The notes below the pieces were generated by a model. It searched no databases. It saw nothing but the letters and a program-made list of their open reading frames with translations, and had not been told where the DNA came from. Below, piece by piece: positions 17,568-21,478 of a DNA stretch of 40,044 bases; position 1 is the first letter of the stretch; every line of letters begins with the position of its first letter. A program made the translations under genes and the position numbers. The DNA lies in the NCBI GenBank assembly GCA_022843745.1, contig JALHNB010000059.1, positions 1 to 40,044 of the forward strand, in the 5' to 3' direction. Source of the stretch: Anaerolineae bacterium (lineage in GTDB: Bacteria; Chloroflexota; Anaerolineae; Aggregatilineales; Phototrophicaceae).

Positions 17568-18659
17568 CTACATCACACCCGCATACGACTTCGCGGTCAT
17601 CGGCTGAAAATCGCCGAGATAGCCCTGCACGGCCAGTAATTCTGCGTTCAGGATGCTGCACCCGGCTGCGCCACGAATCGTGTTGTGCGAAAGGGCGACA
17701 AATTTATAGCCCAGCAGCGGACATTCGCGTAAACGCCCTATCGAAGTCGTCATGCCTTTGCCCGCATTACGATCCCGACGTGTCTGCGGACGATCAATTT
17801 GCGGTAAATATTCGACTGGATGCAGCGGCGCACTCGGTAGTTGCGGCACTGGCTCTGGCCCTCGGAACGCTTCCCATGCCGCCAGAATTGCGTCAAAATC
17901 CGGTTTTTCGGCCAATTCAATCGATACATTGACGATATGCCCATCGACGACAGGCACACGATTGCAGGAAGCGCCGACGATTGCGGGCAGCCATGTGATC
18001 TGTTCGCCATTCATGCGACCCAGCATTTTCAACGGTTCAGTTTCCAACTTGCCTTCGTCGCCGCTGACATATGGCACAATATTGTCGAGAATATCCAATG
18101 ATGCAACGCCGGGATAGCCTGCCCCACTCACGGCCTGCGCACTCACGACGTGAATTTTGGTCACACCAAATTGGCGCAGCGGAGCGAGTGCCATCACAAC
18201 AGGCATCGCCGTGCAATTCGAATTTGCGACCAGTGCGCCGGATGTCCACCCACGTTTACGACGCTGCACGTCAATCAACTGAATATGGTCAGCGTTGGCT
18301 TCTGGCAGCAGCAGCGGCACATCCTCGACCATACGATTCGCCCCGGCGTTAGTGCAAACCACATGCCCGGCAGCAGCCAATTCAAATTCGCGGGTTTCGG
18401 CGGCTTCTTTGGGCAGCGCCGAAAAAATCAGTGGTGAGTCGAACGAATCATCCAATGACTTAACGGTCAGATTTTTAACAGATTCGGGTGGGTTGCCATC
18501 AATCACCCAGTTCACCATCTCGCCATAGGGACGACCTGCGCTCCGGCTTGAACCAATGACCTCTGCTACCTGAAACCAAGGGTGATTTTCGAGCAGTTCG
18601 ATAAATCGTTGTCCAACTGCGCCTGTCGCGCCCAGGACTGCTACATCCAGTTTTCGCAC
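17568..18659 (-). CDS. asd: Aspartate-semialdehyde dehydrogenase
   Basis: The enzyme reduces aspartyl phosphate to aspartate semialdehyde, the branch step to Lys, Thr, Met and diaminopimelate. 363 residues, the longer class related to archaeal and fungal enzymes. The Rossmann motif is VLGATGAVGQRF (8-19). Catalytic Cys149 lies in ANSNCTAMPV, and the histidine region is GASCNRVPVVDGH. GTG 18659 is preceded by AGGAG at 18668-18672, which sits over the end of pheA. The two are adjacent and probably cotranscribed. A second copy of a diagnostic tail, GKGMTTSIGRLRECP, is normal for this class. Confidence 0.95.
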   Translation of the reverse strand: MRKLDVAVLGATGAVGQRFIELLENHPWFQVAEVIGSSRSAGRPYGEMVNWVIDGNPPESVKNLTVKSLDDSFDSPLIFSALPKEAAETREFELAAAGHVVCTNAGANRMVEDVPLLLPEANADHIQLIDVQRRKRGWTSGALVANSNCTAMPVVMALAPLRQFGVTKIHVVSAQAVSGAGYPGVASLDILDNIVPYVSGDEGKLETEPLKMLGRMNGEQITWLPAIVGASCNRVPVVDGHIVNVSIELAEKPDFDAILAAWEAFRGPEPVPQLPSAPLHPVEYLPQIDRPQTRRDRNAGKGMTTSIGRLRECPLLGYKFVALSHNTIRGAAGCSILNAELLAVQGYLGDFQPMTAKSYAGVM

Positions 18660-18670
18660 GTTTTTCTCTC

Positions 18671-19513
18671 CTAAATTCCGACGGATTCACGTCCCGTTTT
18701 AATCGCGGGATAAGAGCCTAGCATTTTGACAAACGACGCTCGCTGTAACAGCCGTGCCAACGCCTCCTGGCAAACCGGGTCTTGCCAGTGCCCCTCAAAG
18801 TCCAGATAAAACACAGGCTCCCAGGGGCGATTGCGGCGGGGGCGCGATTCGATCTTTGTTAAATTCAGCCCACGCAGCGCAAATTCACCCAGGCAGTGAT
18901 ACAACGCGGCAGGTGTATGGCGCGTAGCAAAAACCAGCGACGTTTTATTATATTCACCCTTTGGCGGGTCATCGTGTCCCAAGACGAAGAAGCGCGTAAA
19001 ATTAAACGGGACATCTTCAATTTCAGTTTGCAGAATATCAAGATTATAGAGTTTCCCGGCCATTTCGCTGGCAATCGCACCCGTATGAGGTACGGGTTCA
19101 GCCGCCAGATCGTGCGCCGATCCAGCCGTATCATGCCAGGGTATCGGCTCGATGCCATTACGTTTCAAAAACCCGGCACACTGGGCAAGCGCCTGTGGAT
19201 GTGAGCGTACATACTTTATATCTTCTAGTGCTGTCCCATGCGGCACCATCAGCGCGTGATGCACGTGGACAATAACCTCGGCCTGAATCCGAAAATCTGA
19301 ATCCATTAATAATTCATAGGCCTGATTCACAGCGCCAGCCAGAGCATTTTCGACAGGCACCATCGCATAAGTAACTTTCTGCGACTCTAAAACCGAGAAT
19401 AGATCACTGATGACCGGACAGGGGTAAACATCAACAGTATCGCCAAAATGTTGGCGGATAGCCTGCTCGGAATAAGCCCCCTGTACGCCCTGAAAGGCGA
19501 CGACATTTCGCAA
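18671..19513 (-). CDS. pheA: Prephenate dehydratase with C-terminal ACT domain
   Basis: This enzyme turns prephenate into phenylpyruvate, the committed step of phenylalanine synthesis. From TTG 19513 it has 280 residues: catalytic domain about 1-180, beginning RNVVAFQGVQGAYSEQA and including NFTRFFVLG with the TRF motif, then an ACT regulatory domain about 190-265 containing LTKIESRP, the classical Phe-binding ESRP site. GAGGAG (19523-19528) at 9 bases fixes the start; a longer frame to 19621 would begin inside the promoter and is rejected. No chorismate mutase domain is fused. The asd gene follows after 11 bases. A hairpin with T-run lies directly before the ribosome binding site. Confidence 0.93.
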   Translation of the reverse strand: MRNVVAFQGVQGAYSEQAIRQHFGDTVDVYPCPVISDLFSVLESQKVTYAMVPVENALAGAVNQAYELLMDSDFRIQAEVIVHVHHALMVPHGTALEDIKYVRSHPQALAQCAGFLKRNGIEPIPWHDTAGSAHDLAAEPVPHTGAIASEMAGKLYNLDILQTEIEDVPFNFTRFFVLGHDDPPKGEYNKTSLVFATRHTPAALYHCLGEFALRGLNLTKIESRPRRNRPWEPVFYLDFEGHWQDPVCQEALARLLQRASFVKMLGSYPAIKTGRESVGI

Positions 19514-19528
19514 AATAAACAGCTCCTC

Positions 19529-19564
19529 AAAAAAGAAAAACGTGGACACAAACTTCCACGCTTC
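19529..19564 (-). promoter_or_regulatory. Terminator-like hairpin in the pheA leader (candidate attenuator)
   Basis: On the minus strand, CGTGGA (19560-19555) pairs with TCCACG (19546-19541) around an 8-base loop, extendable by four A-U or G-U pairs. It is followed at once by TTTTTCTTTTTT (19540-19529). This is an intrinsic-terminator shape located only about 25-45 bases after the predicted transcription start and right before the ribosome binding site. It lies in untranslated leader, so it can stop pheA-asd transcription; how it is controlled is not visible. Confidence 0.6.
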
Positions 19565-19591
19565 AGGGGTTGAATTGTTGAATAAGGCGTT

Positions 19592-19621
19592 ATCGTAGCA
19601 CAGAATATTCAGCCAAGTCAA
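19592..19621 (-). promoter_or_regulatory. Promoter of pheA-asd
   Basis: Read on the minus strand: TTGACT (19621-19616), an 18-base spacer, TACGAT (19597-19592). The predicted transcript starts near 19585, giving a leader of about 70 bases before the TTG at 19513. Confidence 0.7.
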
Positions 19622-19720: not shown

Positions 19721-21478
19721 GTGACAGATCAAACCCATCCTACCCATGAGGCGGACCTCAAATGGCTGTGGCATTTCATTATGCTGCACCGCATCGCTGC
19801 TGCCGGATCAATTCTGACAGGTGTGCTGGGAGGTATCACCTCAGCAATAGAACCTTATTTGATCGGTGTCATCATCGATCACATCAGTAACAACGTCAAT
19901 CTCGATCAGATTGTTCATGATATTGTCCTGCTGATTGGCTTCTCGATTGTTACCGTCATCGCGTTCTTCGGTCAGCGAATTTTTAGCGGGCAGGTCGCTT
20001 ATGCCGTGAATTTCGACATCCGCCGCACACTGTTTGACAATCTCATTACGCTTGAGCAGTCCTTTTACCAGCGCTACCAGACGGGAGATCTTATATCCCG
20101 CATGTACAGCGATCTGGATATGATCTGGCGCTTGCTGGCAATTGCGTTCAATCGTTTTGGCAGTGCTCTGCTCACCCTGATCGTCACTTTTGTTCTGCTC
20201 GGTGCGATCAATATCCCACTGACCCTGGTTACATTTTTCGTTCTCACTGTCTCCACTGCTTTTCAAATTCGCGCAGGGTTGGCATTAGCGCCTATGTTTG
20301 AAAAAGTACAGGATCAGGCAGGCGCTATTTCCGCACTGGTACAGGACTCGGTAAGCGGTATTCAGACGATCAAGACTTTTGGGCGCGAAGCTGGAGTCGC
20401 GGAAAAATTCCGCGAAGAAAATAACGAATATCGCCGCCGCTGGCTCTTCTTCAAGCGACGAAACGAGCCAGTGGGTATGCTGCCGAACATGATTAGCCAG
20501 CTTACCGCCGGAATTGTGGTACTATTTGGTGGAATCATGACGCTGCAAGGCTCGATCACACTGGGTAATTTCACACAGTTTTTGATCTACCTCTCGCTCA
20601 TCAGCAACGTTTTGCTCCAGCTAGGCACGATCTATCAGCGTTATCAGCAAACACGCGGTGCGCTCACCCGGCTGTCTCCGTTGTTGCAGGATGCCAATAT
20701 CACGAATCATCCCCAATCGCGGCCTATGCCAAACCCACGCGGTGACATCACCTATGAAAATGTCAGTATTCAGGCAGATGGCACCTCGGTTTTGAGCAAT
20801 GTTTCACTGCATATTCCGGCGGGTTCGGTGGTGGCGTTTGTCGGCCCTACAGGGTGTGGCAAAACGCTGCTCGTTAATTTATTAGCACGTGTCCAAGACC
20901 CCTCCGAAGGTCGCATTCTGATTGATGGCGTAGACGTGCGCTCACTCGCGCTGGAAGATTTACGCCGTGCTATCGCCTATGTTCCACAGTCTACATTTCT
21001 TTTCAGCCGTCCGCTACATGAAAATGTGCGTATGGGCAAGCCTGACATTGAAGACGAAGAACTCAAAAGCGCTATCCACATTTCGCGTGTCAGCAACGAT
21101 CTCCCTCAGCTTCCACAAGGGCTGGATACGCTGGTCGGCGAAAAAGGCGTGATGCTCTCCGGTGGTCAAAAACAGCGTGTGGCGATTGCTCGTGCGATTG
21201 TGCGTGACCCGGCCATTCTCGTGCTGGATGATGCCTTATCGAGCGTGGATACCCAAACTGCCGCCGATATTCTTTCCGAACTGCGCGATGTCCTCAGTAC
21301 ACGCACCAGCTTAATTATCGCGCACCGAATCGCTACCGTAAAAGATGCCGATCACATTGTCGTGATGTCTGAAGGCCAGATTGTGGAACAGGGTACGCAC
21401 GTTGAACTGATCGCACAAGACGGACTCTATGCACGCATGGTCGAGCGTGAGTTAAGAGATGATGATGACCCAGAATAA
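19721..21478 (+). CDS. ABC exporter half-transporter, degenerate-site partner (BmrC/YheI-like)
   Basis: 585 residues: six transmembrane helices (about 20-320) fused to one nucleotide-binding domain. Walker A GPTGCGKT is near 373, signature LSGGQKQRV near 477. Walker B reads ILVLDDALSSVD near 500, with Asp in place of the catalytic Glu. Such Asp substitution is typical of the degenerate half of heterodimeric type IV exporters such as BmrC, LmrC or TM287. The next gene carries the complementary changes and overlaps this one by about 20 bases. GTG start after an AAGGAAAGG. Substrate unknown; drugs, lipids or peptides are possible. Confidence 0.93.
   Translation: MTDQTHPTHEADLKWLWHFIMLHRIAAAGSILTGVLGGITSAIEPYLIGVIIDHISNNVNLDQIVHDIVLLIGFSIVTVIAFFGQRIFSGQVAYAVNFDIRRTLFDNLITLEQSFYQRYQTGDLISRMYSDLDMIWRLLAIAFNRFGSALLTLIVTFVLLGAINIPLTLVTFFVLTVSTAFQIRAGLALAPMFEKVQDQAGAISALVQDSVSGIQTIKTFGREAGVAEKFREENNEYRRRWLFFKRRNEPVGMLPNMISQLTAGIVVLFGGIMTLQGSITLGNFTQFLIYLSLISNVLLQLGTIYQRYQQTRGALTRLSPLLQDANITNHPQSRPMPNPRGDITYENVSIQADGTSVLSNVSLHIPAGSVVAFVGPTGCGKTLLVNLLARVQDPSEGRILIDGVDVRSLALEDLRRAIAYVPQSTFLFSRPLHENVRMGKPDIEDEELKSAIHISRVSNDLPQLPQGLDTLVGEKGVMLSGGQKQRVAIARAIVRDPAILVLDDALSSVDTQTAADILSELRDVLSTRTSLIIAHRIATVKDADHIVVMSEGQIVEQGTHVELIAQDGLYARMVERELRDDDDPE

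Follow-up and report, generated by a model that had tools for sequence, protein, structure and literature searches.

Does the hairpin that lies between the promoter and the ribosome binding site of the pheA-asd gene pair in this Anaerolineae bacterium work as a regulated attenuator, or is it something simpler? A first-pass annotation had described a promoter, a hairpin, a ribosome binding site and a TTG start upstream of pheA as the layout of an attenuated biosynthesis operon, and all of the listed elements were found in the sequence of the window (the whole stretch of DNA analysed, 40,044 nucleotides), as follows.

19592-19621, minus strand: sigma-70-like promoter, with the -35 hexamer TTGACT at 19621-19616, an 18-nt spacer and the -10 hexamer TACGAT at 19597-19592
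19565-19585, minus strand: predicted transcript 5' end (about 19584, placed about 7 nt past the -10 hexamer) and pre-stem leader
19537-19564, minus strand: terminator-like hairpin, identified from a terminator scan, folding, compensatory changes and recurrence before pheA
19529-19540, minus strand: T-rich tract TTTTTCTTTTTT, whose first four bases double as outer stem pairs
19523-19528, minus strand: ribosome binding site GAGGAG, from the sequence
18671-19513, minus strand: pheA, prephenate dehydratase (Pfam PF00800), with its TTG start at 19513-19511
17568-18659, minus strand: asd, aspartate-semialdehyde dehydrogenase (Pfam PF01118 and PF02774), second gene of the operon

The promoter has an extended -10 element, TGC preceding TACGAT with the TG at 19600-19599 of the minus strand, and the predicted leader before the stem comprises 20 nt, so that the stem begins at +21 and its core lies 24 nt from the start. 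On the minus strand the hairpin (19564-19537) reads GAAGCGTGGA-AGTTTGTG-TCCACGTTTT; its core arms are CGTGGA (19560-19555) and TCCACG (19546-19541), and its ten pairs include A-U and G-U pairs and four G-C pairs. The divergent neighbour of pheA, an ABC transporter gene, begins at 19721 on the plus strand. In 42 of the 43 family loci examined, asd lay behind pheA in the same orientation (the exception being G011), and the strict promoter form TTGAC/TTGTC, N17-18, TGN, TANNAT was the best match before pheA in 22 of 45 loci.

The window hairpin has the structural mark of an intrinsic terminator, a stable stem with a U tract immediately after it. Its terminator score was 12, a positive value below those of the aroH terminator of the same genome (31) and of all 21 sites found in the class (13.0-52.9); the ten hairpins of the family ranged from -27.6 to 44. 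The short leader segment folded at -12.5 kcal/mol (z of -2.4 against its own shuffles); folded together with the start of pheA it was unremarkable (z of -0.8). A general terminator scan of 2.8 kb returned 5 terminator-like sites against 3.0 (sd 1.6) in shuffles. The pattern CGTGGA-N3..12-TCCACG had one site in the window, where 0.03 were expected, and occurred at four places in the 8-Mb genome, the level of the reversed control; a genome-wide family of the pheA hairpin was rejected on this count, and the palindrome alone is not special in its own genome because its frequency matches that control.

The scan and the genome-wide frequency of the six-base palindrome are what would be seen if a fortuitous hairpin had merely fallen beside a T-rich stretch, but this explanation was already largely refuted by the recurrence of the hairpin before pheA in relatives, and we consider it very unlikely. 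A pheA match was found in 80 of 98 family genomes, the nearest named relatives being mostly metagenome assemblies labelled Anaerolineae or Chloroflexi and none of the genomes retrieved being a second one of the window's genus, and the table of 45 leaders was obtained from these 80 by leaving out the fragmentary G040 and G072 and 33 of the 34 genomes of genus g18. Six g18 loci fetched by region (L124-L127, L134 and L135) bore no hairpin. A terminator-like hairpin lay at most 110 nt from pheA in 10 of the 45 leaders, where 0.56 were expected from segment-swap shuffles (100 per locus, kinship ignored); positions in these tables are counted from PheA residue 3, 6 nt inside the TTG start. It is this recurrence that places the hairpin above chance. 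Furthermore, the extended pattern CGTGGAG-N3..8-CTCCACG-NTTT, of which the window hairpin carries the shorter CGTGGA form, had five sites in the 98 family genomes, all directly before pheA, and none in the reversed control.

When the ten hairpin leaders were aligned, five of the seven stem pairs had changed on both sides with all cells remaining paired. The rows were picked for having the hairpin, and 100% pairing is therefore there by construction; the compensatory changes are the better evidence, in a set where G044 and G029 nearly duplicate each other and G012 is closely similar. Non-conservation in close relatives had been named in the first-pass annotation as what would refute its reading, and the presence of the hairpin in 10 of 45 leaders together with these changes does not bear this out. 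The CGTGGA/TCCACG arms were common to six family loci, with 7 to 9 bases between them, and no conserved loop or flank was seen among the family leaders, in which loop, flanks and promoter-to-stem distance all vary.

On the PheA tree the hairpin was clustered in the window, G021 and seven of the eleven members of the neighbouring clade, plus G003 elsewhere. Counting all family rows it needed four changes, and the position of the window had no strong support. The intact stem was kept across PheA sequences about 73-79% identical to that of the window. A sub-clade of G079, G074, G065 and G071 had a promoter of the same kind and no hairpin, and six of the ten hairpin leaders (G041, G062, G044, G029, G012 and G003) were without a promoter of the window's form. 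The pheA hairpin is therefore genuine, retained by some members of the family and dispensable to others, and on these comparisons it is a real 5'-UTR element of the predicted pheA-asd mRNA.

If this element is an attenuator, its sensor should be recognisable. Amino-acid operons of enterobacteria, trp, his and pheA among them, are controlled by ribosome-mediated attenuators with leader peptides, and the pheA leader of the window resembles these in its order of promoter, stem with T tract, and ribosome binding site of an aromatic-amino-acid gene. No leader peptide was found at pheA of the window when every start codon of the predicted leader was examined, in keeping with the first-pass annotation, which had seen no ATG-started Phe-rich peptide there. 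The start codons ahead of the pheA TTG (GTG at +26, TTG at +34, GTG at +36 and TTG at +55) are all in or after the stem and have no clear Shine-Dalgarno sequence by eye. The predicted start lies 2 nt from the stem core in G047, 4 nt in G068, 12 nt in G021 and 24 nt in the window, and this closeness leaves no room for an open reading frame before the stem. The TTT-TTC-TTT-TTT run was considered as Phe codons of an N-terminal extension of PheA and rejected, since in G047 and G003, whose pheA open frames have 283 and 281 aa, it is closed at a point downstream of the hairpin. As the frame is not kept open in these two, the Phe codons read in the T run are most likely the coincidence that had been suspected.

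The other half of such a switch, an antiterminator, was sought as a duplex partner (mononucleotide shuffles, with 90 nt upstream searched for the family and 150 nt for the class) and by folding. In the window the best duplex, of -8.0 kcal/mol, was matched by 64.5% of shuffles, and the pairing of the 5' arm in the folding test was 0.60 against 0.59 in shuffles. In none of the ten family leaders was a partner within 90 nt upstream matched by as few as 5% of shuffles, G003 (duplex, 0.095 of shuffles) and G012 (arm pairing, 0.03 of shuffles) being borderline. Over seven family loci, G021, G047 and G068 being excluded for having too little upstream RNA, arm pairing was on average slightly above shuffles (0.63 vs 0.49). 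Five f7 pheA leaders gave 0.26 to 0.73 in the duplex test, which was not significant. These tests are not fully sensitive, as the aroH leader of the same genome itself gave 0.425 in the duplex test and 0.08 in the folding test. In the comparison of leaders among relatives proposed earlier, the compensatory stem changes speak for covariation, and no alternative antiterminator stood above shuffles in the window.

A T-box riboswitch would likewise place a terminator between the promoter and the ribosome binding site of an amino-acid gene, but the 20 nt before the stem leave no space for a tRNA-binding stem I, as had been pointed out from the sequence, and the window gave no Rfam match. At the gathering score there were no matches in the window and none in 14 related loci; a permissive Rfam search of eight loci returned one chance-like miRNA match (E of 0.17, 28 bits against a gathering score of 100). 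A T-box or other known RNA at the pheA leader was rejected for want of such a match.

The origin of the hairpin became clearer outside the family. The pattern AGCGTGGAG-N3..8-CTCCACGCT occurred in 21 of 199 class genomes, at a single site in each, with none in the reversed control. Since these loci were collected by the stem pattern, they bear on the genes and leaders that accompany the stem, not on how frequent attenuators are. An AroH-type open reading frame followed the stem at 19 of the 21 sites, 18 with the motif RG[VI]RGA and L181 with QGVRGA; the motif was present in all 12 loci fetched by the chorismate-mutase family PF07736. Just upstream, at least six Phe, Tyr or Trp codons fell within a 10-codon window at 19 of the 21 sites (L166 having five and L173 four), for example YYYYYYY in L178 and FSFYYYFYF in L163; the five family sites of the extended pattern had 2 to 5 such codons per 10-codon window. 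Among 124 distinct pheA loci, with L002 (the window), L023 and L139 set aside, aromatic stretches at most 1000 nt upstream were found in 26.

The antiterminator was examined in 37 class loci, many of them close kin, made up of the 21 stem-pattern sites and 16 hand-picked hairpin-bearing pheA loci, from which the hairpin-bearing L085, L093, L106 and L144 were omitted. In 36 of the 37 a partner complementary to the 5' arm and loop was placed 52-69 nt ahead of the stem (at 122 in L167), and it was matched by at most 5% of shuffles in 31 of the 37; the folding test was weaker, with 12 of the 21 class loci not exceeding 0.05. By this anatomy, which is that read from the DNA, the class loci are ordinary ribosome-mediated Tyr/Phe attenuators. 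The same stem that stands alone at pheA of the window has, in these other Anaerolineae, both Phe/Tyr codons and an antiterminator; the window differs from them in having neither a leader peptide nor an antiterminator above shuffles. With its promoter, stem and gene in place but no antiterminator above shuffles, a variable loop and promoter distance, and four close relatives lacking the hairpin, pheA-asd does not appear as the actively attenuated operon that had been proposed.

An inverted repeat just downstream of a promoter, with a partly conserved stem sequence, could also be an operator at which a repressor binds the DNA at about +20 to +48. We regard this as highly improbable, because the two arms, where they recur in the family (six loci), stand anywhere from 7 to 9 bases apart, the T tract is one-sided, and in other loci of the class this repeat, T tract included, serves as the terminator of attenuators with leader peptides.

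Several class loci showed further arrangements. In L173 and L176, where a Tyr- or Tyr/Phe-rich stretch lies upstream of the terminator stem, the stem precedes genes other than aroH, which we take to encode a B3/4 (PheT editing-like) domain protein and a LysE-type exporter, respectively. In L077, L092, L097 and L110 the aromatic stretch NLR..WRGFSFGNFWFGYYF upstream of pheA forms part of a more extended open frame that carries DGPT or EGPT on its upstream side. This frame seems to be conserved across the four loci, and what reads as a leader peptide may be the end of a larger predicted open reading frame. L182-L186 (same order, f7) had a conserved leader peptide RP(F/M)..TDS(T/I)C, preceded by WW in four of the five loci, then a terminator and then pheA; the open reading frame after their pheA is presumably threonine-synthase-like. 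L197 and L198, with the gene order of L182-L186, had no such leader among the listed open reading frames. A pairing of Phe and Asp-family genes recurs in these genomes, pheA being accompanied by asd in the family and, in the f7/f8 loci, by a threonine-synthase-like gene.

The genome of the window carries an attenuator with a leader peptide elsewhere. Its aroH locus (L211, about 1770-2000 of G000:C7), unlinked to the window, has the anatomy of a Tyr/Phe leader-peptide attenuator: the peptide contains FSYYYYFK and reads ...LNPQTFSYYYYFKSDIVKGWALPLGQMGLVR, and the terminator is GGCGCAGGGC..GCTCCGCGCC-TTTTTT. By eye, leader and terminator were present in 10 of 11 family aroH loci (the exception being L206); the AroH motif was not found in L215. 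The aroH attenuator and its relatives share with the pheA leader a T-tract terminator ahead of an aromatic gene, and for this aroH the two stand within one genome; they differ in having a leader (...FSYYYYFKSDIVKGWALP...) and another stem, GGCGCAGGGC..GCTCCGCGCC, whereas pheA has the hairpin alone.

Stem-loops at the 5' end of bacterial mRNAs, such as that of E. coli ompA, are known to stabilise the message, and the pheA leader is like them in carrying such a structure close to its 5' end, with the ribosome binding site in the single-stranded RNA that comes after it. The stem might then protect the mRNA from 5'-end-dependent decay, or space the ribosome binding site, with the T tract incidental. 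Known stabilisers have their stem at the very start of the transcript, and the stem starts at about +2 in G047 and about +3 in G068 of the predicted transcript; moreover, the three hairpins of different stem sequence (G044, G029 and G012) score below zero as terminators with the stem intact. In the window, however, 20 nt stand ahead of the stem and a strong, terminator-like T tract follows it, and the stem is common to the class terminators. We think it improbable that stabilisation or spacing is the whole explanation.

From the computed layout, the recurrence, the stem shared with class attenuators, the absent leader peptide and a window without an antiterminator above shuffles we infer descent, partial termination and a fixed, unregulated role. 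The pheA hairpin would be the terminator half of an ancestral Tyr/Phe attenuator, now a sensorless, weak fixed terminator or 5' stem-loop, a reading of the sequences to which we give about half of our belief. The hairpin would descend from the terminator of the Tyr/Phe attenuators that precede aroH and pheA in the class. The sensor half, leader peptide and antiterminator, would be missing from pheA because transcription now starts from a promoter lying right before the stem. Some polymerases would stop at about 19530 and others would read on into pheA-asd, with a fixed reduction to a basal pheA-asd level as the result, or else the stem may be retained for mRNA stability; amino-acid sensing would remain on the unlinked aroH leader. 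In the simplest account, the family pheA, now before asd, kept only the terminator of the old aromatic attenuator and fires from a promoter next to it. Descent is not proven, because the hairpin needs four changes and the place of the window on the PheA tree is weakly supported, and the ten hairpins need not all share one origin, as G044, G029 and G012 differ in stem.

Some results count against a sensorless terminator. An intact stem kept at the PheA identities given above makes some function likely, and the borderline alternative pairings of G003 and G012, the limited sensitivity of the antiterminator tests and the six hairpin leaders without a window-type promoter also weigh against this reading. 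Because of them a trans-acting sensor was kept in consideration: the hairpin might belong to a working attenuator without a leader peptide, stabilised or melted by a trans-acting protein or a small RNA in response to Phe or, given asd in the operon, an Asp-family amino acid. Such an attenuator would be in line with the compensatory maintenance of the stem, the long T tract and positive score in the window, the place of the hairpin directly between promoter and ribosome binding site, the pheA-asd order (42 of 43 family loci) and the pairing hints just mentioned; the variable loop, flanks and promoter distance, the 35 of 45 family leaders without a hairpin, including those of four near relatives whose promoter is of the same kind, and the absence of an outstanding antiterminator in the window all weigh against it. 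We judge it unlikely overall. A more specific and rather doubtful form of it is that after the loss of the leader peptide a trans-acting protein or RNA responsive to Phe or the Asp family came to control the terminator within the first 60 nt; if true, such a sensor would couple Phe and Asp-family synthesis through pheA-asd.

The class attenuators were undescribed in the literature searched on leader peptides of Chloroflexi, Chloroflexus and Anaerolineae; this search did not cover the attenuator survey of Lopatovskaya et al. (2010), and we claim no priority. No description of these attenuators was found in PMC2965389, and the mentions of Chloroflexi found in PMC4833913 and PMC9413887 concern other matters.

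The analysis points to a set of aromatic attenuators of Chloroflexota without an Rfam family in the loci searched. Taken with the sensorless terminator that we favour at pheA, these would form a natural series, from the Tyr/Phe attenuators of the class, through the attenuated aroH of the same genome, to a sensorless pheA terminator in one clade, with losses beside it. With such a series, how a ribosome-mediated switch decays or is replaced can be tested in related genomes.
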